This document shows positions 11,232-51,590 of a stretch of DNA of 60,258 nucleotides, piece after piece. Origin of the DNA: a virus. The stretch spans positions 1 to 60,258 of the IMG/VR virus record IMGVR_UViG_3300007514_000008; one strand, given 5' to 3'. Made by a program: the position numbers and the translations under genes. Positions within the stretch are counted from its first letter, which is position 1; the number at the start of each line of letters is the position of its first letter. Below the pieces are notes generated by a model. That model saw only the letters and a list, made by a program, of their open reading frames with translations, searched no databases and was not told the DNA's origin.

Positions 11232-14200
11232 ATGGGATTACCATTATTCGGTAGCACTGTTCAGGAAAAACTCAGGTCTACCACACAAAATGTAACTACA
11301 CCTACTGTTTCTTTAGGAGAATTTGATTTTCCTACTGAACATAAATGGTTCGATGAAATGCCTGAGATTCCTAAAACTGAGGCTTTAGCAGGAGTTCCTA
11401 AGCCACCTCAACCTAGAGAATCTGGTACCGCTAATGAATTTTTAGGTAGATTAATGTGGGGTGCTTTAGATAGTGCCACATTCAATGCTTTGAGATGGGC
11501 AACTGATGATAAGAGTAAGAGCCTTGCTGACACTATGATGGGAGAAGAATCTGGTCAGACAAGAGCTGGAATGTGGGGAGAAGGAATAGGTCAAGCCGCA
11601 GGATTCCTTGTTCCTTTTGGTACATTTGCTAAGGGGGGAAAAGTTTTAGTTTCTAGTGTTGGTAAGTATGGTTCAAAGAATGTAGCAAAGAAAATTACTG
11701 ATGAGATAGCTGAGGCTACTGCTAAGAAAGCAAGTGTTCAATTTACTACCAAATCTGGTAGTATTATGAAGGGTCCGAAGTATACTGAAGAACTTGCTCG
11801 TGATAAATTCCTTAAAATAATGGACAAGCAGTATAGTGGTAAGAAAGTAATGAACCATTATGCTGATGGCATGAAAAGTGTAGCTGAAAGAAATGTATTT
11901 AGAGAAAGAGTTACCAAGAATTTTGCTGAAAATCTTCAGGAAGAGATGGCTAAGAGTGGGTTAAGATTAGATGGGGCAACAGCAAAAGCAATAGAATCTA
12001 CATATGCTAAGTTTTTTACTAAGGCTGAAACAATGCCTGTGTCCAGTATAGCAGGGGCAATACAAAGATTTATGGCTAAGAGAGTTCCCGGTCTTGGATG
12101 GGATAGTAAGTTAGCATCTGCAGGTTCACTAATGATGGAAGAGGCTATTTTATTTGCTGGTGTTGAGTCAATGTTTGAAGGTATCAATGCATCTCAGAAC
12201 GATAGAGAAGCCCATTATGGAGAAACTATATCACACGCTGCGAAGATGGGTATGATGTTAGGTGCTGTTAGATTAATACCGGGTGGTAAAAAAGGTTATA
12301 ATAAGTTAGGATTAGCTGGTCCATTATCTGGTGCTGAGTCTGGTTTTGGTGGTTTTAGAAAGTTAATTCTAAATAGAGAACCATATAAGAATAGAATTAA
12401 TCATACTGTTGAGAAGCTAAAGGGTGGAGGCACTAAGCCTACTGAAGATACACAAGCATTATTTGAAGTATTCAATATGATTCAACAGGGAGGACAAACT
12501 TTAAAAGGTTCACCTGTTAAAGATATATTAATGAGGAGTGCTAAAGATAATCCGTGGGTTAAAAAAGGTATATTTGGTGGAAAGAGTGGGAAGAATTCTG
12601 TTAGTATATCAAACTTTGACGCAGGAGATATAGAGAGGATACTTGGACAGTCAGGTTCAGGTTGGAGAACAATAGGAGGAGTAAGGGTCAATCAAAAAGA
12701 AGTTGCTTCTCAAATTATGGCTGATGGCTTAGATGATGTGTTTAGAAATTTCAAAACATCTTGGCAAAAGAATTTTTTCAAGGAATATGCAGAGGACTTC
12801 TTAAGGTCTTCCCCTCGTATGGTTATTGGTGGCATTACTATGGCAGGAGGACCGGGCATTGTAATGGATGAGAACATAGAGTTTGTTGATAAAGTTTATC
12901 ATATTGCTCTCGGTGGTTTTATGATGAAGCATGGTAAGCAGTTAAAATGGTATGGTAAGGATGGTCGAGCAATAGAAGGTTCTCAGTTCTTCGGTAAAGC
13001 ACAGCCGTGGGGATTCCATGAGAAGTTTAAAGAACAGACTGCTATGATGGAGCTTCTTGGCGGTAACCCTAAAGACCATTATATGTGGCAAAGTTTTAAA
13101 GAGCAGATGGAGGGTAAGCCTTTGGTTTCCTATCTTGATTCTGTTATTAGGTCATCTAAAGAAACAAAAGATATACTTAAAGTTAAAGATGAATTTTTAA
13201 GGGAGAGTAAAGGAAAAAATATATACTTCACAGAAGGCACTCCAAAAGAAATAAAAGATAATAGTGAGATAGCTAATAATAAAGAAAATAAAGATTTGTA
13301 TGAAATATTTGTATCTCATGGTGCTAATAATTTTATGCCAGCAGAAAGTCCCAAGAATGGTAATGTCTTTTCTGTTAAGAAATGGGAACATCTTACTAAT
13401 CGTGAGAAGAAAAACTTCATTAAAAAGATGAAAGAAAAGAATGTTAAAAGCTCAGATGATTATTTAGATATTATTATTGATTCTAATATTGATGTAATCC
13501 ACGACATTCAAAACAGTATTCAAGGTGGTCTAGTTTCAGCATTACAACAGAAGTTTAAGAAAGGGACAAGAGGTGAAGAAGATGGTGCTATGTGGATGGC
13601 TTCCGACACTTCCGATGGTAAGATTAGGCTACCTAAAATAGATGCTGAGACTACAGGTTCTAAGAAGTTAAGCGAGTCTGAGCTTCAATCTGTTGTAAAG
13701 TACAATCAAATGGTTGATTTCTTACATGAAGCTGGTCGAGTAGAGATATTTTCTAAAAATGCTCAGGATACTGGAACTAAAGTCAATATGGATAGTCCTC
13801 GTCTTGGTGAATTTTTAAGTAGCATTGAGAGTGTTCATAAAACAGTTCAAGAAAAGCTTGGTCTAGGTGGGAGCGAGACTCATGAAATAGCCTTAAATGA
13901 CCCTGTATTTGTTACTGCTAATAGATTTTTTAATACACATAACAATATTAAGACCGCAGAGTCTTGGATTGGTAAGGTTATGTATGATAAGAATGTTGGC
14001 AATCGTGATATAACATTTGAAGGAGATACAAAACAAGAGGCTAAGTCTTTATTGAGAAAGATATTCTATGCAAGTGGAGATGGAAGAACAGGTAGGGTTA
14101 GTGAGCTTGATGTAGTACATGATTTAATCAAGGTAGATAAGAAAACTAAACAGAAAGATGGTGATGTACAACTATCTAGAGAACAAGAGTTTGTAGATTC

Positions 14201-17200
14201 ATTACATGAGATAATTAAGTTTCATGGAACATCTAGATTAAAATCTACTGGCAGTAAGGCTAAAGAATTTCATTATCCTGAGATGAAAAAAGATGTCAGG
14301 AGACTTCAAGAGCTTATGCAGCAAGATGGCATTACTCTATTTTCACATTGGAATCAAGGTATAAGAAATGAATTTGTTGACAATCTTAAGAAAGCTACTC
14401 TAAAGCAAAAACTTCAAGGTCAGATAAGAAATTCAGATGGGACTGTTCGTGATGTTGAGGCTTCAGATATTGATAATATTGTTAAACTTATGGATTCAGG
14501 TCTTGTTAATGAAAATTTAACCTTGCTTAATGTAAAAGGTATTTGGGGAGACGTAAGTGGTCAACATACTGAGTCTCTTATCAATTCTTGGAGAGCAGGT
14601 AAGAGAGGTAAACCAATTCAGGGTGTAGATAATAATGTACAATTAGAGTTCAATAAATTCCTAGATGACATCCTTCTTGCAGAGAAGGCTGATAGGAGAG
14701 GTAGGACAGATAAGCAGATTAAAGACGAAATACAGGGGATAGCTTGGGATACTTTTAAGCAGTACCAAGAAGCTGTTGAGCCTTACGTTATTAAAAATAT
14801 TAAAGATAAAAACGGAGACATTAGAAGAAGTGGGATACTCCATCTTAATAAAACCCAAGAGGTTTTTATGGATAGGGCTACCCTTATATCTATTAATGCT
14901 CAAATGCACTGGGCTAACCACAATAAGAAGGCTGGTTCGGTTGAAAATTTTATTAATGACCTAAGAGATGCTTCAAAGAGTGAGAATATAGAGATGAGGA
15001 ATTTCGCTACTAGGTTGCTTAGAAATTTTGCTAGAAGTGATGCTGATTACACAAGAGCATTGGAATTAGCCAATAGATATAAACTTTATGATAGTGGTAA
15101 GAGGAAGTTTAATGAAGCTAAGGCAAAAATAGATGGTACTTTTGTTGAGCCTAGTGAGAGAATGAAGTTGTTTTTAACTCAAGTTGCTCGACCTACCTAT
15201 GGAAGTAAAAAGCAAGTAGAAGCTAATTATGATAAATGGAAAGATATAGAGACTTTAGAGAATGGTAATGAGGGTTTTCACCAAGAGAATATGTCTACAA
15301 TATCTCAAAAATATAACTTCTTTGGTCATTCTTTTAAGGATGGTTCTGAAATTATCTCCTATGGTGAACAGTCTGTTGTAGACCAATTACATCAAATACA
15401 TGACGGTTATGTTAAATCAAATGGGACTATTGACACAGATGGATTTATTCGTGATTTAAGAAAAGCTGCGGAGAAAAATGGTCCAAAGGATAGAGATGGT
15501 GACAAATTTAGTGACAAAGAGCTATCTAATTTAGATTCTGATTTAAATAAATTAAGAATGGATATAGTTAACTCTGAGACTATTCCCTTAGTTACAATTA
15601 ATACAGATAGAACTAATAGAGAAGGCTCTCACTATCATGATTTAAAGAATAAGGTTAAGACGACTCCTGTTACTCTAGGCATAAGGAAAATATTGGAGGG
15701 GGTTGAGATGCCTTCTAACCATATGCTTGGCGACTTTGTTATGATTGAAAGAGACATCATGACTGATGGTAATAAATATAAACCAATATCTGGTGATGGT
15801 GTAAGGGCAGATATAAACAAGCAGTTGTATGACGCAGAGAGAACATCCACAACTAAGGATATGAAGATAGTAGATGAGTCTGGTGTAGAAAGACCAATGA
15901 CTCAAGAGCAACCTAATAGAAAGGTGTTATATAGTTTCGGTTCTTCTAAGCAGTCATTTGGCATTGTTGCTGAAAGAGGTAGTTTAAATGCTATGGCAGG
16001 AAACTATCTTAGTTTTCTAAGGGGGTTAAAAAGATTTAAAGGTAAAGAAGGGGAAGCAGAACTTCAAGCATATCTAAATGAAACTTTTGGTGTACACTCT
16101 AATGGAATTAATTCAAGAATTAAAATTGTAGAGAAAGATGGTGAAGTAAGAATAGAAAGCACAAAAGAAGATGGTCATATCAATGCAGAGTCAGCTCAGC
16201 AGGCAGTAAAGAATATGATAGATGATAGAATCTTCATAGATGTGGTAGGTGCTGATTTCTATTTTAACAATATAAAGACTTTAGATGCTAAGAGTCAATC
16301 TACCTTAAATGGGAGATTGAGTTTATTTAACAATATGAATTCCAATACCTTAAGTAAGGAAATATTAACAGACATATCTAAGTATCAATTAGATTTTGCT
16401 AAAAAGGGAGATACTCAGGCATTATCAAACGCAAAAGCTCTGAAAGACCTTGCTGATGGTAAGTTCGAGATGAAAGTTTTTAGAGATGAATTCGCTCCAG
16501 AGCAAATGAAAAAAGAAGTTCACCATATGCTGAATGAACAGATAAAGCATTATGAGAATGAATTAGCTGACCCAAATTTACCAAAAGATTTAAGAGAAGG
16601 TATAATAGCAGATAGGGATGTTGCGAAGGAATTATTAGCCGATAAGAGTGGTATGGATGGGTTTACACTTGTCAATCCTAGACTATTTGATGCACTGGCG
16701 TCTATTATGGGTGCTGGGGCTGGTGACCACATCGGGGCAATTAAACCTATTATGCTAAGACACGGAGACCAGTTCTTTGTTAATAAAACAGCGTTCCAAA
16801 AAGATGCTACCTACTCAGATTTCTTTAAAGCAAATGAAAATCTTGGTATGGTTACATTTACATCAGCGTCTAAGTCTTTGCTTCCTAAGAATCAAGCCGG
16901 GGAAAGTGTATATCATCCGTGGTTTCAAGATAAGATTATAGAAGTCAATCAAAGCAAGTCATTGATGGATTATATAGCTGACCCTGCTCATGCAGGTAAA
17001 GCTATAAAGATTAGACCAGAAGATATTCAGTTAATGCAAGTAAAGGGCTTTAAAGATAAAGCAAAGATGGCAGTAAATCATGCTTTAGGAATGGAAGGTG
17101 AAGCTAGGAAGGACTTTATAAAGAAGCATTTAATGGGCAAGTGGGAAACAAATGGTGAGGCTATTCTTAAGTTAGTTAATCATGAAGTCGATGCTATTGC

Positions 17201-20200
17201 CTTTAATCAATTAAGAAATAGAGATATGTATGATAGTCTTATTGACACAGAGACTGCAGTCGGTGTATCTCAAAGGTTTGCTAACGAAGGTCTCAATCCG
17301 TGGGCGATGCCAAATATAAGGTCTTGGCAAAATATTTTAAAGTCTCATTTTATAGACCCTATTGCTAATATAGAAACTAATGGTACTATTGCTACCTTAT
17401 CTCCAGATATGCAAGGTAGACTTCGTGGTACTATTATGGTGAAGGGTAATAACCGCTCAGAAATCTATAGAATGGGAGAGAGTTCTCTACCTCATGAGAG
17501 TAGGAATCAAAAGTTTAATCCATCAGAGACAATGATTATTGATGCCATTGGAACTGCTAAAGGTTCTGATAAAGGTCAAATGATTACTGCTAAGGAGTAT
17601 ATGGATAAGCATAACCTTAAGGCAGAGACTCTTGGTGAGTTATATGATGCTATTTCTGGTCCATCTACAACTGCTCCAAAGAAAGGTGGTCGTGTAGAGT
17701 TTACAACTGAGCTAGGTAGTACATATGTAGTAGACGGGACAACAACTAGAAGGACAAAAGTTCCCAAAACTGGTAAAGGACCGGGATTAAAAGAGAGGTC
17801 AACTGTTACTATGTATATGTCTGAAATGTCTGCCAAACAAGCATTTGGTCAACCATTTGGTGCTATGCAAGTATCTGGAGCAAAGAAAATTGAATTTGGT
17901 GAACTAGGTGTTACAATAAATGGTAAAACTTTTAGTGCGCAGAATAAACCTAAAAAGGGTTTACTCCCTGTTGAATTTATGCAGGGAGACACAGGGACAT
18001 CATATCATGTAGGTCATAAGATTATTAAGATAGGCACAGAACAAGTTGTTGTTCCAGCAAAACATAATAAGAGTATTCTAGTAGCTTGGGAAAGAAATCC
18101 TCATACCAAGCCAGATTCAGTTGTATTACTTAGACTTAAAGATTTTAAAGCCGCAGAAGATGGTGCTAATGGTCAAGTGTCATTTTCAGACGGAAGAAGA
18201 GGACTAGAATTTGACCATGATTTAGACACGGGTAATGCTAGATGGGATTTAGGTAGGAATGTAGCAGAGCATTATTTTAATCAAAGAGGGAGAGTTGCTG
18301 ATTCTCAAGCTAGAAAAGGTGTTACATCTGTAAATGAAAAGATGGATATATTTAAAGCAGAAGAACATCAGAATAGATTATCTCAAGAGCATCGAGGTGA
18401 CTTAATGAAGGGTATCGTTATGAAAACCCAGAGGGTCATCGACCATGTTAAGGATATGGTCAATAGAATTCCAAATGAAGATAAATTAATTCATTTAGGT
18501 GGAAACAGATATGCCAAGTTCAGAACAGATAGAGTTGCCATTGATGAGAAATTGCAACAGTTAGCAAACGATATACAGGGAGTCCTTGATTCAAAGAAAG
18601 GATATGACTCTGATTATTATGCTGATATGTATTCTACCGATATAGGAAATAAGTTTTTATTTGGACCAGACGGTTTATTTCAACCTTATGTGAAGAATAA
18701 AGTGGATGGTGGAATCGTAGTTGAACAATCTGGTCGTTTTACAGAAGTTGATTTAACTGCTTTAAGGGCAGGTATTATAGACCCAATAAATAGATTGGCA
18801 AGAATAACAAGTGCTGATTATTCTCAAACAGGAAAAAGAGAGCAGGTTAGCTTTGATGCTATGATGACTGCTATAGAATACTATAATGGTAACATGAGAT
18901 GGCAACATAAGGTCATACAGAAAGCATTAGAGAAGGCAGGTCTTGGTGGAACAAAGGAATGGTCTGGAGATGGTAAGGATTACGCGGCTAGATTTATGGA
19001 GAATGGCGAAAAAGCTAGTATGTTATTAAATCTGCGTGAAGGAGACTTGGGTTCTCATAGCGTTTTTGAGAGACAGATGTCTCTAATGTATGATTTAGGT
19101 AGGAAGGCAAGGATACGCCCACCTGCTAATAGAAATGAGCCAGAGTCTACCTTTATGAATGGTATTGAGAGCATGACACATAATAAGGATGTGTCTGGAT
19201 TTATGACTGAATACGGAAAATCTATTAAAGATACAGCTAGTAAACTTGGTGCTATAGATATGATAGAAAGAAAAATTAAAAGCACTCAGGAATTAGTCAG
19301 GGAATCATCTCTTCATAGTGATTTTAATGGTATGGACTATTTTAGGAACAGACTTGAAAGATTGAAGAGTGTCAAAAAAGGCATACAGGACAAATTAAAA
19401 TACAAGATTGATTCAGATGGTAATTCTATTAGAAAAGATAATGATGGACAATGGAAGACGCAGGGTAGTAGGGCTACTAATTTAGAAAAGGCTATGTGGA
19501 AAGCAGTTATTAGAGAAAAGAGGAGGGGATTATTAAATAGAGCTTTAAAAAAAGCAGATGGCAATAGGGAAAAGGAACTGGAAATCTTTGAGAAATTTGA
19601 AAAAGATAATAAAGATGATGCTCTTGTTATGAAAGAGCTTGAAAAGAATGGGATTGAATTTACTACTATGGGTACTAGAGAAATGATTTCAGCAGTTGCT
19701 ATGCAAAAGGCTTTTGGAACTTTATCTAATGTAGAAATGTTTATGGATGCTGGTTCAAATGTAAGGCAATTACATCATATGACTAGCTTTGTTAATCGTC
19801 AAGCCCGTGAAATGAGAGAATATATTGATTCACGATGGAATGATTTTAATAATAGTGACAAGCCTAATGAATTAGCTACTCAAGTTGCTAAGGACATACA
19901 AGCTTCTATGGAACAGAAATTCCTTACTATTTTTAATGAAAACCCAGATATGGCTAAATTATTTATCTTTAAGGTCATGACTCCTGAAATAAATTATGGT
20001 AAGTTAGTTAAAGCAGGTAATCGTATGATGTTTGCACCTAAAAATGCGAATCACCATAGGTTTGCTACCGCTGGATTTAAGTTCTTTAATGAAACCCAAC
20101 AAATACCTGAAGCTATGAAACAAGTTATATTTAAGGATATGACTGAAGTTATGAATAGTGCTTATAGGGAAATTATCCATCCAACCGAGACTAAATGGGA

Positions 20201-20777
20201 TTACGCTAATGGTGTAACTGATATTTTGGAGGTTTCATTTAATGGTAATGGAGAGCTTACTCATACATTAAGGAAAGGTCAGACTGCTGATGCTAAAATG
20301 GGTTCTATAGGTAAAGAATTGATTGAAGAAACTAATATATTCTATCAGTATGATAACCCACTTATGTATAATAGCACAGGTCTTGTTAGTGATGTTGTAA
20401 GAGAAGTTAATCCTAATCTTGGTAGTAGTAAGTGGGGAGCAGAGTATAGCCAATTAACTCAATATGAGATGATGAGAAAAGTATTTGGCACAGGGGGTAT
20501 ACGAGAAGCAATAAGTAAAAGAAGTATTCCATTCTTTCCAAGTGGAGCAATAGATAAAATGACAAAACATGGTCATGCTTATGGTATTGGTGGTATGGCA
20601 GACTATAGAAGGGCAATAGAGAGGGAGGCTACTGGGCTTTTAGGGGACTTACACGGAAAAGAAGGACTGTTAGGAGAGGGTAGTAATATGGATTTTAATA
20701 CAAATGTCATGCTTGGTAGACACAAGAAAGCAAGAGATGTTGTAAAAGAACAAATAGACAAACTATGTAATAAGTAG
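11232..20777 (+). CDS. Giant (3181-residue) putative ejection/internal virion protein
   Basis: This is the largest gene, 9.5 kb or about 16% of the genome. The N-terminal ~60 residues are Pro/Thr-rich. Residues ~100-145 contain a glycine-rich hydrophobic stretch (EGIGQAAGFLVPFGTFAKGG) that could act on membranes. The rest is mixed alpha/beta and helical with no signature I recognise. I looked for transglycosylase, peptidase, SNF2, methyltransferase and T7-type RNA polymerase motifs and saw none convincing. Size and position resemble the giant virion-packaged proteins of some phages (for example N4 virion RNA polymerase or polyvalent proteins ejected with DNA), but function is unknown. It is spaced 2 bases from the previous gene and 6 from the next. 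Confidence 0.6.
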   Translation: MGLPLFGSTVQEKLRSTTQNVTTPTVSLGEFDFPTEHKWFDEMPEIPKTEALAGVPKPPQPRESGTANEFLGRLMWGALDSATFNALRWATDDKSKSLADTMMGEESGQTRAGMWGEGIGQAAGFLVPFGTFAKGGKVLVSSVGKYGSKNVAKKITDEIAEATAKKASVQFTTKSGSIMKGPKYTEELARDKFLKIMDKQYSGKKVMNHYADGMKSVAERNVFRERVTKNFAENLQEEMAKSGLRLDGATAKAIESTYAKFFTKAETMPVSSIAGAIQRFMAKRVPGLGWDSKLASAGSLMMEEAILFAGVESMFEGINASQNDREAHYGETISHAAKMGMMLGAVRLIPGGKKGYNKLGLAGPLSGAESGFGGFRKLILNREPYKNRINHTVEKLKGGGTKPTEDTQALFEVFNMIQQGGQTLKGSPVKDILMRSAKDNPWVKKGIFGGKSGKNSVSISNFDAGDIERILGQSGSGWRTIGGVRVNQKEVASQIMADGLDDVFRNFKTSWQKNFFKEYAEDFLRSSPRMVIGGITMAGGPGIVMDENIEFVDKVYHIALGGFMMKHGKQLKWYGKDGRAIEGSQFFGKAQPWGFHEKFKEQTAMMELLGGNPKDHYMWQSFKEQMEGKPLVSYLDSVIRSSKETKDILKVKDEFLRESKGKNIYFTEGTPKEIKDNSEIANNKENKDLYEIFVSHGANNFMPAESPKNGNVFSVKKWEHLTNREKKNFIKKMKEKNVKSSDDYLDIIIDSNIDVIHDIQNSIQGGLVSALQQKFKKGTRGEEDGAMWMASDTSDGKIRLPKIDAETTGSKKLSESELQSVVKYNQMVDFLHEAGRVEIFSKNAQDTGTKVNMDSPRLGEFLSSIESVHKTVQEKLGLGGSETHEIALNDPVFVTANRFFNTHNNIKTAESWIGKVMYDKNVGNRDITFEGDTKQEAKSLLRKIFYASGDGRTGRVSELDVVHDLIKVDKKTKQKDGDVQLSREQEFVDSLHEIIKFHGTSRLKSTGSKAKEFHYPEMKKDVRRLQELMQQDGITLFSHWNQGIRNEFVDNLKKATLKQKLQGQIRNSDGTVRDVEASDIDNIVKLMDSGLVNENLTLLNVKGIWGDVSGQHTESLINSWRAGKRGKPIQGVDNNVQLEFNKFLDDILLAEKADRRGRTDKQIKDEIQGIAWDTFKQYQEAVEPYVIKNIKDKNGDIRRSGILHLNKTQEVFMDRATLISINAQMHWANHNKKAGSVENFINDLRDASKSENIEMRNFATRLLRNFARSDADYTRALELANRYKLYDSGKRKFNEAKAKIDGTFVEPSERMKLFLTQVARPTYGSKKQVEANYDKWKDIETLENGNEGFHQENMSTISQKYNFFGHSFKDGSEIISYGEQSVVDQLHQIHDGYVKSNGTIDTDGFIRDLRKAAEKNGPKDRDGDKFSDKELSNLDSDLNKLRMDIVNSETIPLVTINTDRTNREGSHYHDLKNKVKTTPVTLGIRKILEGVEMPSNHMLGDFVMIERDIMTDGNKYKPISGDGVRADINKQLYDAERTSTTKDMKIVDESGVERPMTQEQPNRKVLYSFGSSKQSFGIVAERGSLNAMAGNYLSFLRGLKRFKGKEGEAELQAYLNETFGVHSNGINSRIKIVEKDGEVRIESTKEDGHINAESAQQAVKNMIDDRIFIDVVGADFYFNNIKTLDAKSQSTLNGRLSLFNNMNSNTLSKEILTDISKYQLDFAKKGDTQALSNAKALKDLADGKFEMKVFRDEFAPEQMKKEVHHMLNEQIKHYENELADPNLPKDLREGIIADRDVAKELLADKSGMDGFTLVNPRLFDALASIMGAGAGDHIGAIKPIMLRHGDQFFVNKTAFQKDATYSDFFKANENLGMVTFTSASKSLLPKNQAGESVYHPWFQDKIIEVNQSKSLMDYIADPAHAGKAIKIRPEDIQLMQVKGFKDKAKMAVNHALGMEGEARKDFIKKHLMGKWETNGEAILKLVNHEVDAIAFNQLRNRDMYDSLIDTETAVGVSQRFANEGLNPWAMPNIRSWQNILKSHFIDPIANIETNGTIATLSPDMQGRLRGTIMVKGNNRSEIYRMGESSLPHESRNQKFNPSETMIIDAIGTAKGSDKGQMITAKEYMDKHNLKAETLGELYDAISGPSTTAPKKGGRVEFTTELGSTYVVDGTTTRRTKVPKTGKGPGLKERSTVTMYMSEMSAKQAFGQPFGAMQVSGAKKIEFGELGVTINGKTFSAQNKPKKGLLPVEFMQGDTGTSYHVGHKIIKIGTEQVVVPAKHNKSILVAWERNPHTKPDSVVLLRLKDFKAAEDGANGQVSFSDGRRGLEFDHDLDTGNARWDLGRNVAEHYFNQRGRVADSQARKGVTSVNEKMDIFKAEEHQNRLSQEHRGDLMKGIVMKTQRVIDHVKDMVNRIPNEDKLIHLGGNRYAKFRTDRVAIDEKLQQLANDIQGVLDSKKGYDSDYYADMYSTDIGNKFLFGPDGLFQPYVKNKVDGGIVVEQSGRFTEVDLTALRAGIIDPINRLARITSADYSQTGKREQVSFDAMMTAIEYYNGNMRWQHKVIQKALEKAGLGGTKEWSGDGKDYAARFMENGEKASMLLNLREGDLGSHSVFERQMSLMYDLGRKARIRPPANRNEPESTFMNGIESMTHNKDVSGFMTEYGKSIKDTASKLGAIDMIERKIKSTQELVRESSLHSDFNGMDYFRNRLERLKSVKKGIQDKLKYKIDSDGNSIRKDNDGQWKTQGSRATNLEKAMWKAVIREKRRGLLNRALKKADGNREKELEIFEKFEKDNKDDALVMKELEKNGIEFTTMGTREMISAVAMQKAFGTLSNVEMFMDAGSNVRQLHHMTSFVNRQAREMREYIDSRWNDFNNSDKPNELATQVAKDIQASMEQKFLTIFNENPDMAKLFIFKVMTPEINYGKLVKAGNRMMFAPKNANHHRFATAGFKFFNETQQIPEAMKQVIFKDMTEVMNSAYREIIHPTETKWDYANGVTDILEVSFNGNGELTHTLRKGQTADAKMGSIGKELIEETNIFYQYDNPLMYNSTGLVSDVVREVNPNLGSSKWGAEYSQLTQYEMMRKVFGTGGIREAISKRSIPFFPSGAIDKMTKHGHAYGIGGMADYRRAIEREATGLLGDLHGKEGLLGEGSNMDFNTNVMLGRHKKARDVVKEQIDKLCNK

Positions 20778-40159: not shown

Positions 40160-41719
40160 GTGGCAAATATAAATACACAGAATGTAAGTGAAGCTGAAGA
40201 GATACTTGAGTTAGCTAGTAAAGACCTTATTGCTTTCGGAAAGTTATTTCTGCCAGATGACTTCATGAGAAGTGAAACACCTGCCTTCCATTTTGAGATG
40301 GCAGATGCGATTGACGATGCTCAATGTAAGCAACTGGCGATTATACTCCCCAGAGGTCATGGTAAAACGGTGCTTACAAAGGCTAGTATCATTAAAGACT
40401 TTTGTTTTTTAGATACTGATATGCATTTCTATGCTTGGGTATCTGCTACACAAAGACTATCCGTAGGGAATATGGATTACATTAAACACCATTTCGAGTA
40501 CAATGAAAAACTCATTTATTATTTTGGGAGACTCAAAGGGAAGAAATGGACAGAGGAAGATATAGAGTTAACAAATGGATGTAAACTTATTAGTAAGAGC
40601 AATGTCGCAGGAATCAGAGGTGGAGCGAAACTTCATAAACGATACGACCTCATCATCCTTGACGACTTTGAACACGAACAAAACACAATCACGCCAGAAG
40701 CAAGGGCAAAAAATGCGAATCTTGTTACTGCCGTTGTCTATCCTGCTCTTGAGCCTCACACTGGTCGCCTTCGTGTCAATGGTACTCCTGTACATTATGA
40801 TTCTTTCATCAATAATCTTCTTACTAGTAATGCAAAGGCTCTTAAAGGGGATAAAGAATTTGCTTGGAGGGTGATTACTTATAGAGCTATTCGAGATGAT
40901 GGAACTGCATTATGGGATAGTTGGTTTCCATTAAGCAAATTAGAAGAAAAGAAGAAGTTTTATAGAGATTCTGGAACTCCTTCTAAATTTTACCAAGAAT
41001 ATATGATGGAGGTACAGAGTGAAGAAGATGCAGTCTGGACTTATAAACATATTAAATACTATGAAGGATTTTATACCCACGAGGATGGAGTCAACTACAT
41101 TAGTATTGATGGCGAAAGGATTCCTGTTAATACCTTTATTGGCTGTGACCCTGCTACTGACATTGACACTAAGGAGTCTGACTTTTCTGTTATCATGGTT
41201 GTTGCGGTGGATGTCAATAATAATTTATACGTCTTAGAATATGAAAGGCATAGGAGTATACCTACTCTAGGTGCAAAGGATAAGGATAACAAGATAATCG
41301 ATAAGAAGGGAGTTTGTGATTATATTATGGAACTTCATGAGAAGTATCATTGTACAAGCTCTTGTGTTGAAGACGTTGCTATGAATAGGTCTATTTTCCA
41401 AGCATTAAATGACGAGAGAAGAAGGCTTAATAAGTATAATATTGCAGTAATCCCAGAGAAGCCCGGAGGTACACAGAAGAGAAATCGTATTTATAGTGGA
41501 CTTTCTGGTAGATTTTCACTAGGCGCAATATTTGTTAGAGAAAACCAGTTTGATTTAATTAACGAAATAGTTACATTTGGACCTAGAATGGCTCATGATG
41601 ATACCATTGAGGCACTTTATTATGCTAATTTATACGCATTTCCTGCTAATTTGACGCAAAATAAGGAAAAAAAGTGGTATAAAAAGAAAAAAAGAGCAAA
41701 AAGTTGGATAATAGCTTAA
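40160..41719 (+). CDS. terL: Terminase large subunit
   Basis: The protein has 519 residues; the only usable start is GTG at 40160, because the frame is closed by a stop at 40130-40132. The N-terminal ATPase shows Walker A LPRGHGKT (residues 63-70) and Walker B LIILDDFEHE (164-173). The C-terminal RNase-H-like nuclease shows GCDPATD (Asp330), SCVEDVAMN (Glu404/Asp405) and RMAHDDTIEAL (Asp480/Asp481). It cuts concatemers and pumps DNA through the portal. No ribosome site is obvious ahead of the GTG, so its translation may depend on coupling. Confidence 0.95.
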   Translation: MANINTQNVSEAEEILELASKDLIAFGKLFLPDDFMRSETPAFHFEMADAIDDAQCKQLAIILPRGHGKTVLTKASIIKDFCFLDTDMHFYAWVSATQRLSVGNMDYIKHHFEYNEKLIYYFGRLKGKKWTEEDIELTNGCKLISKSNVAGIRGGAKLHKRYDLIILDDFEHEQNTITPEARAKNANLVTAVVYPALEPHTGRLRVNGTPVHYDSFINNLLTSNAKALKGDKEFAWRVITYRAIRDDGTALWDSWFPLSKLEEKKKFYRDSGTPSKFYQEYMMEVQSEEDAVWTYKHIKYYEGFYTHEDGVNYISIDGERIPVNTFIGCDPATDIDTKESDFSVIMVVAVDVNNNLYVLEYERHRSIPTLGAKDKDNKIIDKKGVCDYIMELHEKYHCTSSCVEDVAMNRSIFQALNDERRRLNKYNIAVIPEKPGGTQKRNRIYSGLSGRFSLGAIFVRENQFDLINEIVTFGPRMAHDDTIEALYYANLYAFPANLTQNKEKKWYKKKKRAKSWIIA

Positions 41720-42303: not shown

Positions 42304-44535
42304 ATGCCAAGAGGTAGAAACAAGAAAGCTGATGTAGTGAGGGACTTATGGAAAAAGACTAATACATTTCATAGAAGGAAATGGTATAATGATAGTCAAC
42401 AGGGAGTAGACTTCTATTTAAATGACCAATTATCACAGGCTGAAAAAGACTCTTTAACAGAATCCGGGATGCCAGATTTTGTTATTAATAGAATTACACC
42501 AGCTATTGATATTATGAAGTACTTTGTAACAGCCAATAACCCAAGATGGCAGGCTGTAGGGGCAGAGGGTAGTGATTCAGATATTGCTCATATTCATGGT
42601 GCTATTTCTGAGTATTGTTGGCATAGGTCAGGTGGTAAGAGCCTTTTTGGTCAAGTAATTCATGATTCATTATCAAAGGGTATTGGTTTTTTTGCAGTTA
42701 CAGTTGATACTAATGCGGACCAAGGGCAGGGTGAAGTTGTATTTTCATCTGTTGACCCTTATGATGTTTATGTAGACCCTACATCTAGAGATATTCAGTT
42801 TAGGGATGCTAATTATATTATTATTCAGAAGAATATGTCTAAAGAAGCATTAAAGAAATTAATGCCTCAGTATAAAAATAAGATTTCTAGGGCAACTGGA
42901 AGCCCTGAGGCGAAACAAACTTCCAATAGGGATAAAGACGCAAGTTATTCTATACAACATTCTGATATAGATTTTGCTGATACATTCAAGCCAGATGATG
43001 GAGAAAGAGATGACACTCTTGATTTTTATGAGTGTTACCAAAGAGTATCTGTCCCATTTATTTCTGCTTTAGTGAAAATACCTCCCTCTCCTGCTGAGAT
43101 GGAAATTATTCAACAACAAGTCCAACAAGAAATGGAAATGGCTAAGGCTGAGTTACAAGTTTCTATGCAAGAAAGGCAGTTAGAGTTAGAAACCGCTGTT
43201 CAGCAAGGAGATATGATTCAAGAAAGGGCAGAACTTGAGATGACTAAAGCCCAACAGGAGATGCAGTCTCAACTTGAACAACTTCAAAAAAGTATGGAAG
43301 CTAAACTTGTTGAAGCAAAAACTGCCACAGATACTCAGATTCATGAGAAATCAGTATTTGATAATTTTATGGAAGAAAAGGGTTACGCAGAAAATGTCAT
43401 AAGTTATAATGAATTTTACGAACAACGAATAAAGCTTACTTGTGTTGCAGGGGATATGTTCTTATACGAACAAAGACTTGCTGTTGATAACTATCCTCTT
43501 GTCCCTATTTGTTATACACATACTGGGACTCCATATCCGATGAGCGCAGTGACTCCTATGATAGGTAAACAACAAGAATTAAATAAATCCCATCAAGTTA
43601 TGTTACATAATGCTAACCTCGCTTCTAATCTAAGGTTTGTTTACCAAGAAGGTTCTATTGACGAGGATGAATGGGAGCAGTATTCATCTGCCCCCGGTGC
43701 ATTGTTGAAGACTAGACAAGGATTTGAAGTTCCAACAGTAATAAATCCTCAGCCAATTAATAATGCATTTTTTACTATAACACAACAAGGTAAAGAGGAC
43801 TTAGAACATATTTCTGGTGTTACAGGTCAGATGCAGGGAGTTGGGCAACCCCAACATGAAACTTATAGAGGTATGTTAGCATTAGATGAATACGGAACTA
43901 GAAGAATTAGACAGTGGACAAATAATGTTGTAGAACCAGCTCTTGAGAGCTTAGGTAAGGTTTTTATGCAGGTTGCTCAAATTGTATACAGTTCTAATAG
44001 GGTGTTTAGAATTGTTCAACCAGAAGAAGGAATGTCTGAGCCTGAGGTTAGTCAAGTAGAGATAAATATCCCAGTTTATAATGATTATGGTCAAGTAATA
44101 AAAAGATGGAATGACTATGCTAGTTCAAAATTTGACGTAAGGATTATTGCAGGTTCTACACAACCAGTCAATAGATGGGCTTTACAAGACGAATATTTTA
44201 AGTTTTTTGAAGCAGGTCTTATTGATGATATTGCCATGATTCAACAAACTGATATAAGAAATAAAAAACAAATACTTCAAAGAAAGTCTTTATATTCTCA
44301 ACTACAAAATACTATACAACAACTTGAAGGAACAGTTAAAGACCAACAGGGAACTATACAGACCCTTGAACGTCAAGTAGTTCAGGCAGGGATAAAAGAT
44401 AAAGTTAGAACTGCTGATGTTGAGATTAATAAAGCGGTTAATGAGACAACTGCTCAGCAAAAACTGGTGCAGAATATCATGAAGACGGAACTTAGTTCTG
44501 CTAAGAAAGAACAAGTTGCAAAAGAAAAAGGGTAA
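42304..44535 (+). CDS. Portal protein
   Basis: The protein has 743 residues, matching the larger (P22-like) portal class. Residues ~1-240 look like the portal wing and clip (SGMPDFVINRITPAIDIMKY, DPYDVYVDPTSRD). Residues ~259-349 carry an unusual Gln/Glu/Met-rich coiled-coil insertion (QQQVQQEMEMAKAELQ). The crown/barrel end is helical with a second coil (~665-700). It forms the dodecameric vertex through which DNA enters and leaves. It lies directly after a small gene and before scaffold and capsid. Confidence 0.85.
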   Translation: MPRGRNKKADVVRDLWKKTNTFHRRKWYNDSQQGVDFYLNDQLSQAEKDSLTESGMPDFVINRITPAIDIMKYFVTANNPRWQAVGAEGSDSDIAHIHGAISEYCWHRSGGKSLFGQVIHDSLSKGIGFFAVTVDTNADQGQGEVVFSSVDPYDVYVDPTSRDIQFRDANYIIIQKNMSKEALKKLMPQYKNKISRATGSPEAKQTSNRDKDASYSIQHSDIDFADTFKPDDGERDDTLDFYECYQRVSVPFISALVKIPPSPAEMEIIQQQVQQEMEMAKAELQVSMQERQLELETAVQQGDMIQERAELEMTKAQQEMQSQLEQLQKSMEAKLVEAKTATDTQIHEKSVFDNFMEEKGYAENVISYNEFYEQRIKLTCVAGDMFLYEQRLAVDNYPLVPICYTHTGTPYPMSAVTPMIGKQQELNKSHQVMLHNANLASNLRFVYQEGSIDEDEWEQYSSAPGALLKTRQGFEVPTVINPQPINNAFFTITQQGKEDLEHISGVTGQMQGVGQPQHETYRGMLALDEYGTRRIRQWTNNVVEPALESLGKVFMQVAQIVYSSNRVFRIVQPEEGMSEPEVSQVEINIPVYNDYGQVIKRWNDYASSKFDVRIIAGSTQPVNRWALQDEYFKFFEAGLIDDIAMIQQTDIRNKKQILQRKSLYSQLQNTIQQLEGTVKDQQGTIQTLERQVVQAGIKDKVRTADVEINKAVNETTAQQKLVQNIMKTELSSAKKEQVAKEKG

Positions 44536-45471: not shown

Positions 45472-47010
45472 ATGGCTGACACAAGTTATCCTCAGAATAC
45501 CCCTCTGAAACTAGCTACCAGCTCAGGACTTTCCGAAAACAGTAAAGCTATTGCCGCGTCTGGTCTATCAACTGGTGACCTCAGGAGACGATATGACTTC
45601 TCCGAAAGGTTTGCAGAATTAGCAATCGACCAAACACCATTCTTCCGTTTGGTGTCAGGTCTTGCAAAATCCCCAGTAGACGACCCGCAGTTTAAGTTCA
45701 CAGAAAAAAGACAATCATGGATGAAGCGTTATGCTTACGTGGTTGGTCATGTAATTACAGGTAGTGTTGATAAATTTGACAATGCTGGTTTCTGTAATTT
45801 CAATGATTCAGAATCAAGCGCAGCGAATGAAGCGATTGCTCTCCAAGATACTGTGAAATTATACATGGCTACTGATTATAAGTCCGCTGGTAATTTACAA
45901 AACATCTCCGGTCAAGCGAACGGAGCTATTGCGATAGGTGCGGCAGGAACAGCACCTGAATTCCTAATGCCTAACCAAATTCTTAGAATTAATCTCTCTG
46001 CAACTGCTGGTGGTGGAACTGCGATTAGTGATTATGCACTAGTTAAAGTTTCCTCTGTTGGCGCAGAAGTAACTAAGAATAGTATGCAAGTTAAACTTGT
46101 TACTGGTGAGGTTGTAAGAGCTGCAAGTGGAGAGTATTGCTCATATGCGAGTAACGCACCTCTAACTGATGCTTACGACAAAGACATCGCTACTCAATTA
46201 GAGGCTATGCGTTCTTATGTCGCTGGTACTTCTTACGAAGAAGGTAGTAGCTTACTTGGAAAATCATGGAAAGATAATCCATATAGTACAGGTTATGGAC
46301 AAACTCAGATTTTTAGGTCTGAATTTGGTATGACCAATACTGCAAGAGCAACAGCACTCAAATACGAGCCTAACGAATGGGCGCGTGTATGGCGTGATAA
46401 GTTGATTGAACACAAGTGGGAAATTGAATATGCTGGACTTTTTGGTTCGCAGGTTGAAGATGCCGCAGGTGTAGGTCACACACAAGGTGCAGTTGATTAT
46501 ATCTTGAAGTATGGAAACATCTTCTCTTGGAATACATCAAAAACTGTTGATAGTTTCCTTGATGATATGTCTAAGTATGTTGACCCTCGTTACAACCAAT
46601 CAAAAGCAACTGTCTACTTCTGTAGCACGGATGTGTATAACTGGATTCATAAACTAGGTGGATATTTTAAACAGAATATCGGCATTGATGACCAGTTTCG
46701 TGCAGACCTTGCAGTTACAGGAAGAAAGAAAGTTATGGGCTTAGATGTTAGTACTGTTAGTACTGTCTATGGCGACATGAATCTTTCTAGATGTATTGCT
46801 CTTGATGGCTCAGCAGTTAAGATTCTTGGTATTAACATGAATCATGTCAAATATCGTCCATTGGTCGGTAATGGTGTGAATCGTGATACCGCTATCTACG
46901 CAGGAGTTCAATCACTAGAGAATTCTGGTATTGATAAAAGAGTAGATATGATTCTAACTGAAGCTGGTTTCGAGTGGCAAATGCCTGAAGCACACGCAGT
47001 TTGGAAATAA
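45472..47010 (+). CDS. Major capsid protein
   Basis: The protein has 512 residues, with a position and length right for an HK97-fold capsid protein. The N-terminal arm is low-complexity (Thr/Ser/Ala), then LRRRYDFSERFAELAIDQTP, DDPQFKFTEKRQSWMKRYAY. The C-terminal part (CSTDVYNWIHKLGGYFKQNI, RKKVMGLDVSTVSTVYGDMN, HAVWK end) fits the A/P domains. Residues ~85-190 form a sheet-rich insertion. GC content is slightly higher and codon choice cleaner than in the neighbours, as is usual for the most abundant gene. Confidence 0.88.
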   Translation: MADTSYPQNTPLKLATSSGLSENSKAIAASGLSTGDLRRRYDFSERFAELAIDQTPFFRLVSGLAKSPVDDPQFKFTEKRQSWMKRYAYVVGHVITGSVDKFDNAGFCNFNDSESSAANEAIALQDTVKLYMATDYKSAGNLQNISGQANGAIAIGAAGTAPEFLMPNQILRINLSATAGGGTAISDYALVKVSSVGAEVTKNSMQVKLVTGEVVRAASGEYCSYASNAPLTDAYDKDIATQLEAMRSYVAGTSYEEGSSLLGKSWKDNPYSTGYGQTQIFRSEFGMTNTARATALKYEPNEWARVWRDKLIEHKWEIEYAGLFGSQVEDAAGVGHTQGAVDYILKYGNIFSWNTSKTVDSFLDDMSKYVDPRYNQSKATVYFCSTDVYNWIHKLGGYFKQNIGIDDQFRADLAVTGRKKVMGLDVSTVSTVYGDMNLSRCIALDGSAVKILGINMNHVKYRPLVGNGVNRDTAIYAGVQSLENSGIDKRVDMILTEAGFEWQMPEAHAVWK

Positions 47011-47098: not shown

Positions 47099-50000
47099 AT
47101 GAAACTTTGGGAAAAAGTAAATAATTTTACTGGTCATAATACTAAGGCTAGATATTTAGTAGAGCATATTAATGCAGGTGCTAAGTTTATTCTTAGTGCG
47201 TTACCTGAAAAGTTCCTATGGACTGTTGCTGATGAAGTAGAGATAGACGGTTTTGATTCAACGGGTGCATCTCTTATAGGTAATGGTTCTCCTGTGGCTT
47301 ATGATAAAATATTAGCAGTTTATCGTTATGACAATGGTAAGAAAAGAGTGTGTGCTGAAGCACCAGATAAGAGTATACATATCTTTGATGAAGGCAATAG
47401 TCTTCTTAGGGCTACCGAGATGTTTCCAAAGTTCTATAAATTATCTGGAAAGATTTATATTAAACCCGACCCTGACTATAATGCTCATGTTGGAAGTGGT
47501 AATGCTTTTCAACACGCTTATACTGACCTTGATGGAAATACCATTACTGTAGACTCAGAAGAGGGTGATAAAGGAGTGGTTGTTTATTCAGCACCTCCAG
47601 TAGTAGATGCCAATACAGATACTTGGATATTGGTTGAATATGAGAATATTGCATTGTTATACGCAGCATCTTTAGATGCATTGAGACTCGTTCAGTCTTA
47701 TAGGAGTAAATGTGAAGATGAAATAAAGGAAATTACCACTGCGAGTACAGGGCTTTTATCTCTTTTTAGAACTAATTTTGAAGCAATAGATTTGACTAAA
47801 GATACAAGTGGGGCTACAATTACTATTCCCACTCCTAACTTTACTTTCTCAACATCTCAATCTTTACCAAGTTTTAGTTTTTCTGAGACTCTCCCAACAT
47901 TCTCATTTAGTGAGTCTGTTCCAAGTGCTATTAATTTAAGTTTAAGTCTTCCTTCGTTAGATATTACTAGCCTCTCAGAACCAACAGGATTATCTATTAC
48001 ATCACCATTACCAACGGCTATTAATGTAGCTACATCATTACCAAGTTTAACTGGTATGCCTAGTTCATTACCAAATGCGTTTACATTAACTGAGACATTT
48101 CCTACTTTTGCTTTTGCTAGGGCTATTCCAGATGGTATTAATGTAACTAAATCATTACCTTCTGACTTTGAATTAACTAGACCATTTCCAGTTCCAATTC
48201 AAATAACATCTGATTTTCCTACGGATTTTTCAATTTCTCAAGAGTTTCCTGAGTTTACTTTTACTGGTGTCCCTCCTAGTTCTTTACAGTCAACTAAGCA
48301 ACTACCAGATAGTATGACGAATGAGATGACGACTCCATTACCTTCTTGGGCATTATCAACTACTATCCCTAGTGAAGTTAATGTAGAGGCTAATTTACCC
48401 AGTGCTTTCAGTATAACTAGCTTATTCCCAACGGATTTAGCTATAGGAAGTAGTCTTCCAAGTGCTTTTGATGTTGGCGAACTTACATTACCATCTGGAT
48501 TAACTGTAACAACCCCTAAGCCTGAATGGAATCCTTCTTTCTTAGATTTAGATTCATCGGCAATCACAACTAAGATAAATAATGCAAATGATTTATTATT
48601 AGGAGGGCTTGATAGCACTGATTCAACATCTGTGACATCGACTTCTGCAATCTCTTGGTTAGATGAAGAAGACCCTGACATGGTTAATTCAACCTTACAA
48701 ACTGTTAACTCAGCTATCGGTCTAGCAAGTGGAGAGATTCAAAAACAAGCACATTTTATAGATAAGTATAGAGGGGAAGTGCAAAGTGAGGTTTCAAGAT
48801 TTAGTAATTTAGTACAAATGTTTAACACAGAACATCAAACTGAGGCTACAAGAGTAACAACCGATGCTAATCTATATAAGACTGCAGTTGAGACTGAAAG
48901 GTCTAGAATCAATGCTGAAATAGAGAAGTATAATGGTGAGTTATCTAAAGAAGCCAAGAGAATTGATAGTCAATTACAGAGATACTCTATAGAATCACAA
49001 TCAGAAAAGACTAGAATTGATGCAGAATCTACCAAATATCAATTAGAGCTTGAGAAAGAGAAGACAAGAATTAACTCAGGATTAAAAGTATTGGAAACCG
49101 ATGTTTCTAAAGAGTCTACAAGATTACAAACTGAATTAGGCAAGTATCAAGCTGAAGTAGGGTTCTTAACTGCTAAGAGTGAGCAAGATATTAAAATATT
49201 CTTAGGAGAGATTGATGGAGAAAAAACGAGAATAGAAGCTGAAGTCACTAAATATGGTAAAGATTTAGATGCTGCAGTTGCAGTTCACAAGCAAGAAGCT
49301 GAACAATATGCCTTAGATTTACAGAAAGAGACTAGTAGAATTGAGAATGGTATTAAGAAGTATCAAATTGAGATGGAGAGTGAAGTTTCTAGATATAAGG
49401 CTGAATTAGATGCTTATAGTGCAGAAGTGGCTAAGGAATCAGCTAAGAGTAATGTAGATGTTCAAGCATACTCAGCAGAACTTCAAAAAGAAAGTACTCG
49501 TATTGATTCTGATTTAAAGATTTGGACTAATGATTTTCAAAAAGCAGTTCAGGAGTTTCAGGCTAAATTACAGGCATTTACCACAGAGGTAGAGAAAGAA
49601 AGTGCTAGGTTTAATGCAGATTTAGCAAGATACAATGCTGAAACAAATAAAGCTCTTCAGGAGTTTGGAAGTGATGTGCAGAAATATCAAGCAGAGTTAG
49701 GGAAAGAAGCTAATCGACATCAAGCTGAATCATCTAATTATCAACTTGAACTCGGCAAGGAATCGGCTAGATTACAAAGTGCTATCTCTTCATACCAAGC
49801 CGAATTAGGTAAGTTAGCTCAAAAATTCACAACAGATATAAATGCATATTCAACAGAATTGGGTAAAGAAGTACAAAGAGTAAATACTGAACTTGGTAAA
49901 TACCAAGCAGGATTAGGTAAGGAACAGCAAAGGGTACAAACTGAATTATCTAAGTACCAAGCTGAGTTAGGAAGAGAAACTCAAAGATTTAATGGAGAAA

Positions 50001-50335
50001 TTGGGAGATATAACGCAGAATTAGGGTTGAAAGTTCAAGATTTGCAAAAACAAGTAAATCAATATACTAGTGAGATGACTAAATACACTACATTAATACA
50101 AGCCAAAACATCTAAATGGAGTTCAGATTCTCAGAAAGCTAAAGGATATTTAGAAGAAGCTGGTATGAGATTACAAACTGCAGGCACTTATATGCAGAAG
50201 AGTCAAAGTTTCTTTGCAAATTCTAGGGATTTTTACCAAAGAGCATTACAAGAACTATCAGCAATTAGTGGTGCCGTTACTGCTCCTCCTCAAAAACAAG
50301 CCACTCAAAGACAAGAGCAAGGAGCGACATCATAA
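47099..50335 (+). CDS. Head-tail adaptor fused to long repeat fibre
   Basis: The protein has 1078 residues in three parts. Residues 1-230 look like an adaptor or tube-like domain (KFILSALPEKFLWTVADEVE, KSIHIFDEGNSL, YENIALLYAASLDAL). Residues ~243-480 are ~22 decapeptide repeats with consensus [LFI]P[ST]xhxhTxx. Residues 557-1006 are 25 consecutive 18-residue helical repeats (consensus YxAELxKExxRxxxElxK). A collar or whisker fibre attached to the neck is the best explanation. GTGAGG precedes the ATG; a 23-codon frame in front lacks a ribosome site. Confidence 0.65.
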   Translation: MKLWEKVNNFTGHNTKARYLVEHINAGAKFILSALPEKFLWTVADEVEIDGFDSTGASLIGNGSPVAYDKILAVYRYDNGKKRVCAEAPDKSIHIFDEGNSLLRATEMFPKFYKLSGKIYIKPDPDYNAHVGSGNAFQHAYTDLDGNTITVDSEEGDKGVVVYSAPPVVDANTDTWILVEYENIALLYAASLDALRLVQSYRSKCEDEIKEITTASTGLLSLFRTNFEAIDLTKDTSGATITIPTPNFTFSTSQSLPSFSFSETLPTFSFSESVPSAINLSLSLPSLDITSLSEPTGLSITSPLPTAINVATSLPSLTGMPSSLPNAFTLTETFPTFAFARAIPDGINVTKSLPSDFELTRPFPVPIQITSDFPTDFSISQEFPEFTFTGVPPSSLQSTKQLPDSMTNEMTTPLPSWALSTTIPSEVNVEANLPSAFSITSLFPTDLAIGSSLPSAFDVGELTLPSGLTVTTPKPEWNPSFLDLDSSAITTKINNANDLLLGGLDSTDSTSVTSTSAISWLDEEDPDMVNSTLQTVNSAIGLASGEIQKQAHFIDKYRGEVQSEVSRFSNLVQMFNTEHQTEATRVTTDANLYKTAVETERSRINAEIEKYNGELSKEAKRIDSQLQRYSIESQSEKTRIDAESTKYQLELEKEKTRINSGLKVLETDVSKESTRLQTELGKYQAEVGFLTAKSEQDIKIFLGEIDGEKTRIEAEVTKYGKDLDAAVAVHKQEAEQYALDLQKETSRIENGIKKYQIEMESEVSRYKAELDAYSAEVAKESAKSNVDVQAYSAELQKESTRIDSDLKIWTNDFQKAVQEFQAKLQAFTTEVEKESARFNADLARYNAETNKALQEFGSDVQKYQAELGKEANRHQAESSNYQLELGKESARLQSAISSYQAELGKLAQKFTTDINAYSTELGKEVQRVNTELGKYQAGLGKEQQRVQTELSKYQAELGRETQRFNGEIGRYNAELGLKVQDLQKQVNQYTSEMTKYTTLIQAKTSKWSSDSQKAKGYLEEAGMRLQTAGTYMQKSQSFFANSRDFYQRALQELSAISGAVTAPPQKQATQRQEQGATS
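47864..48536 (+). repeat. Decapeptide (30-bp) repeat block
   Basis: The block lies inside the adaptor-fibre gene and has about 22 units of 9-11 residues, for example LPSDFELTRP, FPTDFSISQE, LPNAFTLTET, IPSEVNVEAN. The proline and following Ser/Thr, then an alternating hydrophobic pattern, are the shared feature. Nucleotide identity is low, so the repeats are old and kept by protein structure rather than by recent slippage. A beta-spiral-like shaft is likely. Confidence 0.75.
48767..50116 (+). repeat. Array of ~25 exact-length 18-residue repeats (54 bp period)
   Basis: Starting at residue 557 of the adaptor-fibre protein, units such as YNGELSKEAKRIDSQLQR, YQLELEKEKTRINSGLKV and YQAELGRETQRFNGEIGR follow each other with no insertion or deletion I can find. 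Each begins with Tyr/Phe/Trp/Leu. A period of 18 residues equals five alpha-helical turns, so the pattern is that of a straight helix. Sequence identity between units is low except in the last seven. Confidence 0.9.
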
Positions 50336-51086: not shown

Positions 51087-51590
51087 ATGGCAAATATAAA
51101 AGCAAGGGTTGACGTTAGTATAAGTCCTTATTTGACAATACCAACAGCCGCGAATCAACCTGAAATAACAAGTGGGCTAACATCAGCCACATTTCCTTCA
51201 GGATATATCGGTGGAGGTAGTTATTTAGCTACCATTGATGCATCTGATAATAATATCTCTGTTACAGATGTAAGCGCAGTATTAGTTTCTAATTCTGCCA
51301 CTAGAGTGCAAATTAGTGCATTAGGTAAGCAGGGTACTTTAATATTAAAGAATAGTGGTTTTGAAGAAGCCGCGAAAACAAATGCAGCAAATGCAGGTTC
51401 AGATGTTCTAGTATATGTGACAGATGCTGAAACCACAATCATAACAAAGTTAACGGTTGAGAATAAAGATGTTTTCGTTATTCCATATACTGGTCTGAAT
51501 ATTTCGTCTTATTATTTTAGGAATGTCAATTCAACTGCTTCTAAACCTGTGTATGTTGAAGGCTTTTTTATGCACGATACTAATACTTAA
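51087..51590 (+). CDS. Beta-rich virion protein
   Basis: The protein has 167 residues, nearly all beta (ANIKARVDVSISPYLTIPT, RVQISALGKQGTLILKN, FVIPYTGLNISSYYFRNV). Compact and without repeats, it could be a decoration, tail-tube-end or fibre-base protein. TAGGAG precedes the ATG. Confidence 0.5.
   Translation: MANIKARVDVSISPYLTIPTAANQPEITSGLTSATFPSGYIGGGSYLATIDASDNNISVTDVSAVLVSNSATRVQISALGKQGTLILKNSGFEEAAKTNAANAGSDVLVYVTDAETTIITKLTVENKDVFVIPYTGLNISSYYFRNVNSTASKPVYVEGFFMHDTNT

Follow-up and report, generated by a model that had tools for sequence, protein, structure and literature searches.

The window, that is, the whole stretch of DNA analysed here (a virus record of 60,258 bases with 36% G+C), contains on its plus strand a 1078-aa ORF that is the first gene 3' of the major capsid protein (MCP) gene, a position equal to that in its relatives. 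This gene of a marine phage appears to encode a rod-bearing portal adaptor. The order portal-MCP-adaptor is the one described for SU10 (PMC9509320), and the candidate adaptor gene adjoins those of the portal and the MCP, ahead of the tail genes. The features to which the text refers are the following:

40160-41719, plus strand: terminase large subunit (phrog_38, E 4e-75)
42304-44535, plus strand: P22-type portal protein (Pfam PF16510, E 2.1e-45)
45472-47010, plus strand: SU10-type MCP (Pfam PF17236, E 2.6e-17)
47099-50335, plus strand: whole gene, predicted portal adaptor with a putative inserted hairpin rod (1078-aa ORF)
47099-47737, plus strand: predicted adaptor core with helices 1-2, beta dock-like domain and helix 3 (residues 1-213; 24-sequence alignment, AlphaFold, structural and profile match)
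47807-48556, plus strand: outgoing arm, about 24-26 Pro-rich decapeptides (residues 237-486; Fourier peak of Pro at 10.0)
48557-48682, plus strand: conserved tip with WLxDEDxEM (residues 487-528), kept in rodless relatives
48767-50116, plus strand: returning arm, predicted helical, of 25 gapless units with 18 residues each (residues 557-1006; Fourier analysis, decoder and shuffles)
50159-50269, plus strand: predicted adaptor helix 4 with YYQRAxxEL (residues 1021-1057), conserved also in rodless relatives
50270-50332, plus strand: C-terminal tail (AITGAxTAPxQQQxxQRxEQ), probably portal-embracing, conserved in relatives

In T7 and SU10, a helix bundle and a domain for docking fibres make up the adaptor, together with a segment at the C-terminus by which it embraces the portal (PMC6702177, PMC9509320), and several comparisons point to the same type of protein here. 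With the predicted structure of L018, one of the short relatives, as query, Foldseek placed portal-tail chains of VP1 and GP4 at ranks 1 and 2 (weak, E 0.014), and VIA-align matched over 155-160 residues the chains 8jov_G (Z 9.3), 7z47_B (Z 8.5) and 9k09_d (Z 8.4), which are adaptor-sized chains of GP4, SU10 and cyanophage A4 taken as adaptors by their length and entry titles; Z values of 8.4-9.3 are moderate and fall within the chance range of helical bundles. The matched range of the model runs from residue 1 to 517-518 and thus includes both the conserved N-terminal part and the C-terminal end, which argues for the rod being inserted within the adaptor. Most of the high structural matches (ClyA-like proteins, AhlB, designed bundles) were set aside as long-helix look-alikes. 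At the profile level, hhalign of A1 against seven SU10-like adaptors gave a weak but collinear match (probability 49%, E 1.8e-4, 59 columns) that covers the stretch VxYSAPPxxDxNTDxWxLxEYENIxLxYAASLD; the profile of the rodless relatives gave no match to the SU10 adaptor alone. With the gp11-type adaptors (T7 gp11, SU10 gp11, GP4, VP1 and that of cyanophage A4) the protein would have in common the four-helix bundle, the beta dock domain that follows helix 2 and precedes helix 3, the C-terminal tail, the location of the gene after that of the MCP and the structural similarity. The known representatives, however, have about 200-250 aa and a short turn between helices 3 and 4, whereas here that turn is represented by the tip and a two-armed rod, with up to about 850 aa.

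The modelled fold therefore suggests a gp11-type portal adaptor of a short-tailed phage in which, by this map, the insert would lie between helices 3 and 4 of the bundle, and whose C-terminal tail may be, by analogy, the equivalent of the embracing segment of T7 and SU10 (PMC6702177, PMC9509320). This tail comes after the rod in the chain, and the rod would exit the bundle on the side away from the portal. A preliminary description of this DNA had considered a long helix fused to a neck adaptor, as a possible whisker or long collar fibre. The attachment stands, as the fold match brackets the insert, but the helix is not a C-terminal add-on: instead, it would lead back, as the second arm of a hairpin, into the adaptor helix bundle within which this hairpin is inserted.

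That description had recognized in the helix about 25 gapless repeats of 18 residues, each starting with an aromatic residue or Leu. Indeed, residues 557-1006 split into 25 consecutive 18-mers with zero gaps, whose position 1 is occupied by Y (20 units), F (3), L (1) or W (1) and whose consensus is roughly YQAELxKExxRIxxELxK. The Fourier and repeat analyses then proposed as a check agree with it: hydrophobic residues peak at 3.60 (the main peak) and 2.25, which correspond to 18/5 and 18/8; at lags of 18, 36, 54 and 72 residues the identity amounts to 28-31%, 5.5 to 6.2 sd over the other lags; and the 18-mer columns hold 37.3 bits of information vs 17.1 ± 0.6 in 1000 shuffles (z about 33). Weaker identity peaks at lags 7 and 11 indicate that the 18-mer is composed of a hendecad and a heptad (an 11+7 sub-structure), and with its main peak at 3.60 the arm departs from the 3.5-residue period of a canonical heptad coiled coil. 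Neither of the two outcomes named in advance as contrary to the repeat was encountered, since a cyclic decoder with gap penalties stays ungapped over residues 554-1015, and AlphaFold2 predicts helix at 526-784 and 789-1061, although with partly low confidence. The length of ~67 nm attributed to the helix is supported by both the gapless 18-mers and the AlphaFold helix.

Eighteen residues over five turns is an accepted near-straight periodicity (18/5 and hendecad, alpha/beta coiled coils; PMC4786415). The idea of a straight helix devoid of supercoil holds in its first part, the helix being predicted as nearly straight, but not in the second: 18/5 equals 3.60 and is slightly below the 3.63 residues per turn of the undistorted helix (PMC4786415), so a slow left-handed twist is expected, with a computed pitch of about 65 nm vs about 15 nm for heptads. 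The hydrophobic stripe is narrow (positions 1, 5, 12 and 16) and flanked by acidic residues at positions 4, 8 and 15 and basic ones at 7, 11 and 18. The helix wheel displays four faces, occupied by large hydrophobics (0-60 degrees), by almost uncharged Q/N (100-180 degrees), by small A/S/T residues (about 200-220 degrees) and by charged residues (-20 to -120 degrees). Tandem repeats are undetectable at the DNA level, which implies that the units are old. In some relatives the helix arm needs a small register change (of 4, 7 or 11 residues), and a conserved mid-helix kink, which was also searched for, fails to hold across them. A match to Pfam Suprabasin and two PHROG matches within the helix were set aside as repeats of similar composition.

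The 18-mers account for no more than half of the rod. Before the helix comes the decapeptide arm, overlooked in the preliminary description together with the 1:1 coupling of both arms. Its units follow the consensus LPSxFxITxS, with Pro recurring every 10.0 residues and hydrophobics at positions 1, 5 and 7 in >90% of them. Judging from the sequence, these three positions would share a face of an extended strand; the period being even (10), this hydrophobic face would be kept from unit to unit.

How the two arms relate to each other can be seen in the relatives with the same gene neighbours that were gathered from viral contigs, all of them metagenomic. Every one of them conserves residues 1-213 and the final 60, while the middle ranges from about 55 to 850 aa, and in every complete rod-bearing relative the rod and the adaptor constitute a single ORF. 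With the tip taken as the divider, the lengths of strand and helix correlate with r 0.997 and a slope of 0.58 over 53 distinct relatives that bear a rod. Phylogenetic contrasts on the adaptor-domain tree give practically the same value (r 0.995), with signs that agree in 33/33 large contrasts. The number of decapeptides per 18 residues of helix arm is 1.026 ± 0.014; this count depends on a Pro-based segmentation, of which the arm-length regression is independent. A misplaced tip would yield a negative correlation, and the adaptor domain does not lengthen with the rod (r -0.31). Eight of the 16 distinct helix-arm lengths (521, 413, 359, 341, 305, 269, 215 and 161) fall in one class, all being 17 modulo 18, and the others lie outside it. 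The arrangement of the arms recurs, with a ratio of about 0.5, in four distant relatives. Among more distant MCP relatives, L068, L070, L071 and L082 carry adaptor-like proteins that show the strand-tip-helix layout, with irregular 11/7/18 spacing in the helix. Ten relatives are rodless yet conserve adaptor, tip and tail, and in a further rodless one (L073) the tip is absent too; a plausible series thus leads, across the relatives, from the plain adaptor up to rods of 25 units. Searches of cultured phage records with tblastn returned no match for the protein, the adaptor part, the MCP or two of the relatives, the PDB gave none by sequence, and no report of a strand/helix rod architecture was found in the open-access literature. 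In genome assemblies, the sole match was L166, a relative with 37% identity on a 7.1-kb contig of a Roseobacter metagenome bin, which is weak evidence hinting at a Roseobacter host.

The reading that we consider probable, with appreciable room for others, is that of a hairpin rod, with an extended strand that leaves a gp11-type adaptor, a conserved tip and a near-straight helix that comes back, the whole being probably a neck or tail fibre. After helix 3, about 25 decapeptides, kinked by Pro, would take the chain outwards in an extended amphipathic strand. The chain would then turn at the WLxDEDxEM tip, which would be the far end, and return as one near-straight helix of about 25 18-residue units that leads to helix 4 and to the tail embracing the portal, the insert beginning and ending at the adaptor. 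Assuming that the arms pack in an antiparallel manner, one decapeptide would lie beside one 18-mer, and both arms would repeat axially at about every 27 A (18 residues at 1.5 A in the helix vs 10 residues at 2.7 A in a kinked strand), and each added unit pair would lengthen the rod by one 27-A step. A register between strand and helix needs a near-straight, gapless helix, and this would explain why the 18-mers are uninterrupted. Since the narrow hydrophobic stripes need burial, chains of neighbouring adaptor subunits would have to associate, although a dodecamer alone would not tell rod pairs, trimers or a tube apart. The rod would measure roughly 70 nm in the phage of the window and project 24-79 nm among the relatives. 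Two AlphaFold monomer models, made from thin alignments, reach pLDDT 69 and 59 and pTM 0.48 and 0.35, and in them the strand is not packed on the helix; the AlphaFold fold of L018, with its long helix broken at 411-416, was distrusted for the rod. As for the function, the T7 and SU10 adaptors hold long tail fibres, and by analogy the most likely role would be that of a fibre built into the neck or tail, tunable in length, that presents the tip for adsorption or holds other fibres.

Long appendages attached to the neck or the adaptor, as proposed here, are also represented by the long tail fibres of SU10 and T7 and by the fibritin whiskers of T4, but these are encoded by separate genes and form separate trimers, whereas here the rod is within the adaptor chain. 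An extended chain running antiparallel along a helical core is found in the leash-in-the-groove coiled coils (e.g., in HA2-type fusion proteins). Those are non-repetitive, unlike the strand and helix repeats described here, which are matched 1:1 and grow together. Coiled coils with the 18/5 periodicity, in turn, are rarely ungapped for 25 units, as this one is, and here a coupled decapeptide arm is added.

If the rod does not end in separate fibres, could the twelve hairpins of an adaptor ring join, through laterally adjoining straight helices, in a single 12-fold tube prolonging the tail channel, with the rod setting the tail length and the nozzle sitting at the tip? We regard this as unlikely, albeit the foremost of the alternatives. 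Two faces for side packing, on roughly opposite sides of the helix, and a Q/N face suit a helical barrel, and the H tube of phiX174, a decameric helical DNA conduit with a lining mostly of Q, N and R (PMC7354561), has long helices with such a face; it has neither an adaptor nor a strand arm, and a tube in the present case is only a candidate. The turn between helices 3 and 4 should face away from the portal, given that the C-terminal embracing helix faces it (PMC6702177), and the tip conserved in rodless forms would sit there near the nozzle. However, a tube offers no evident place for the strand arm, the narrow hydrophobic stripe fits dimers or trimers equally well, and no nozzle or long tail was identified. 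Marginally less credit is given to a new kind of rod, a split repeat, in which a decapeptide and an 18-mer that are remote from each other along the chain are added in pairs and the 12 hairpins make a straight tube that extends the tail channel, the tail length being set by the adaptor repeats without a tape measure.

A conventional trimeric helical whisker on the adaptor, whose Pro-rich region would be a separate element, either a flexible linker or a beta fibre, with no packing between the arms, is a somewhat weaker contender still. It agrees with the confirmed helical repeat and with the role of the SU10 and T7 adaptors as attachment sites of long fibres (PMC9509320, PMC6702177), but it predicts neither the 1:1 unit coupling nor a decapeptide array spanning the same length as the helix, and the insert returns to the adaptor at both ends. 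A whisker or long fibre would, moreover, be expected to be a separate gene product, and the rod is within the adaptor ORF. Very improbable is a tape-measure or ejected internal protein with the helix length as the ruler: variable-length long helical repeats do occur in tape-measure proteins, and one distant relative weakly matches a tape-measure family (E 0.008), but the gene follows that of the MCP, the adaptor fold flanks the insert on both sides, the portal is of the P22 type, and otherwise similar gene clusters include rodless forms. Nor is it, as tape-measure proteins are, a protein of its own that lacks an adaptor domain and is encoded between the tail tube and tip genes.

To our knowledge, the podophage adaptors known so far only hold fibres, and the one described here seems to grow its own appendage, its related phages being a natural series that goes from no rod to 25 units. 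Two unlike repeats that grow in pairs, 1:1 over a several-fold length range, point strongly, and in a testable way, to an unusual protein rod, and the natural length variants are ready for structural work and for the design of straight fibres of a chosen length.

Some other elements of the locus are worth mentioning. On the minus strand, an antisense 147-aa ORF (48238-48681) overlies the decapeptide arm and is also open in the close relative L003 (43% identity), being probably a by-product of the codon pattern of the decapeptide repeat. A 3181-aa ORF (11232-20777), for which Pfam and PDB gave no match, makes up most of one genome arm together with ORFs of 1713 and 914 aa; it is possibly an ejected giant protein. 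Between its terminase and portal genes, L003 carries (710-1186) a 158-aa gene (MRFEEIIEHTLKHEGGYVDDPKDLGGETNMGI) read by eye as lysozyme-like, at whose place the window has a different 130-aa gene. Lastly, at 51087-51590 and the same place in the relatives, rod-bearers have mostly a gene of 141-171 aa, either of the MARIDYAxSVTxIQ.. type or of that of the window, and the rodless loci have a different gene of 78-80 aa (11/11 of those tabulated), with L022, L033, L104 and L147 as exceptions to the pairing of this gene with the rod. The gene at 51087-51590 may be a partner of the rod, or the pairing may reflect lineage history alone.
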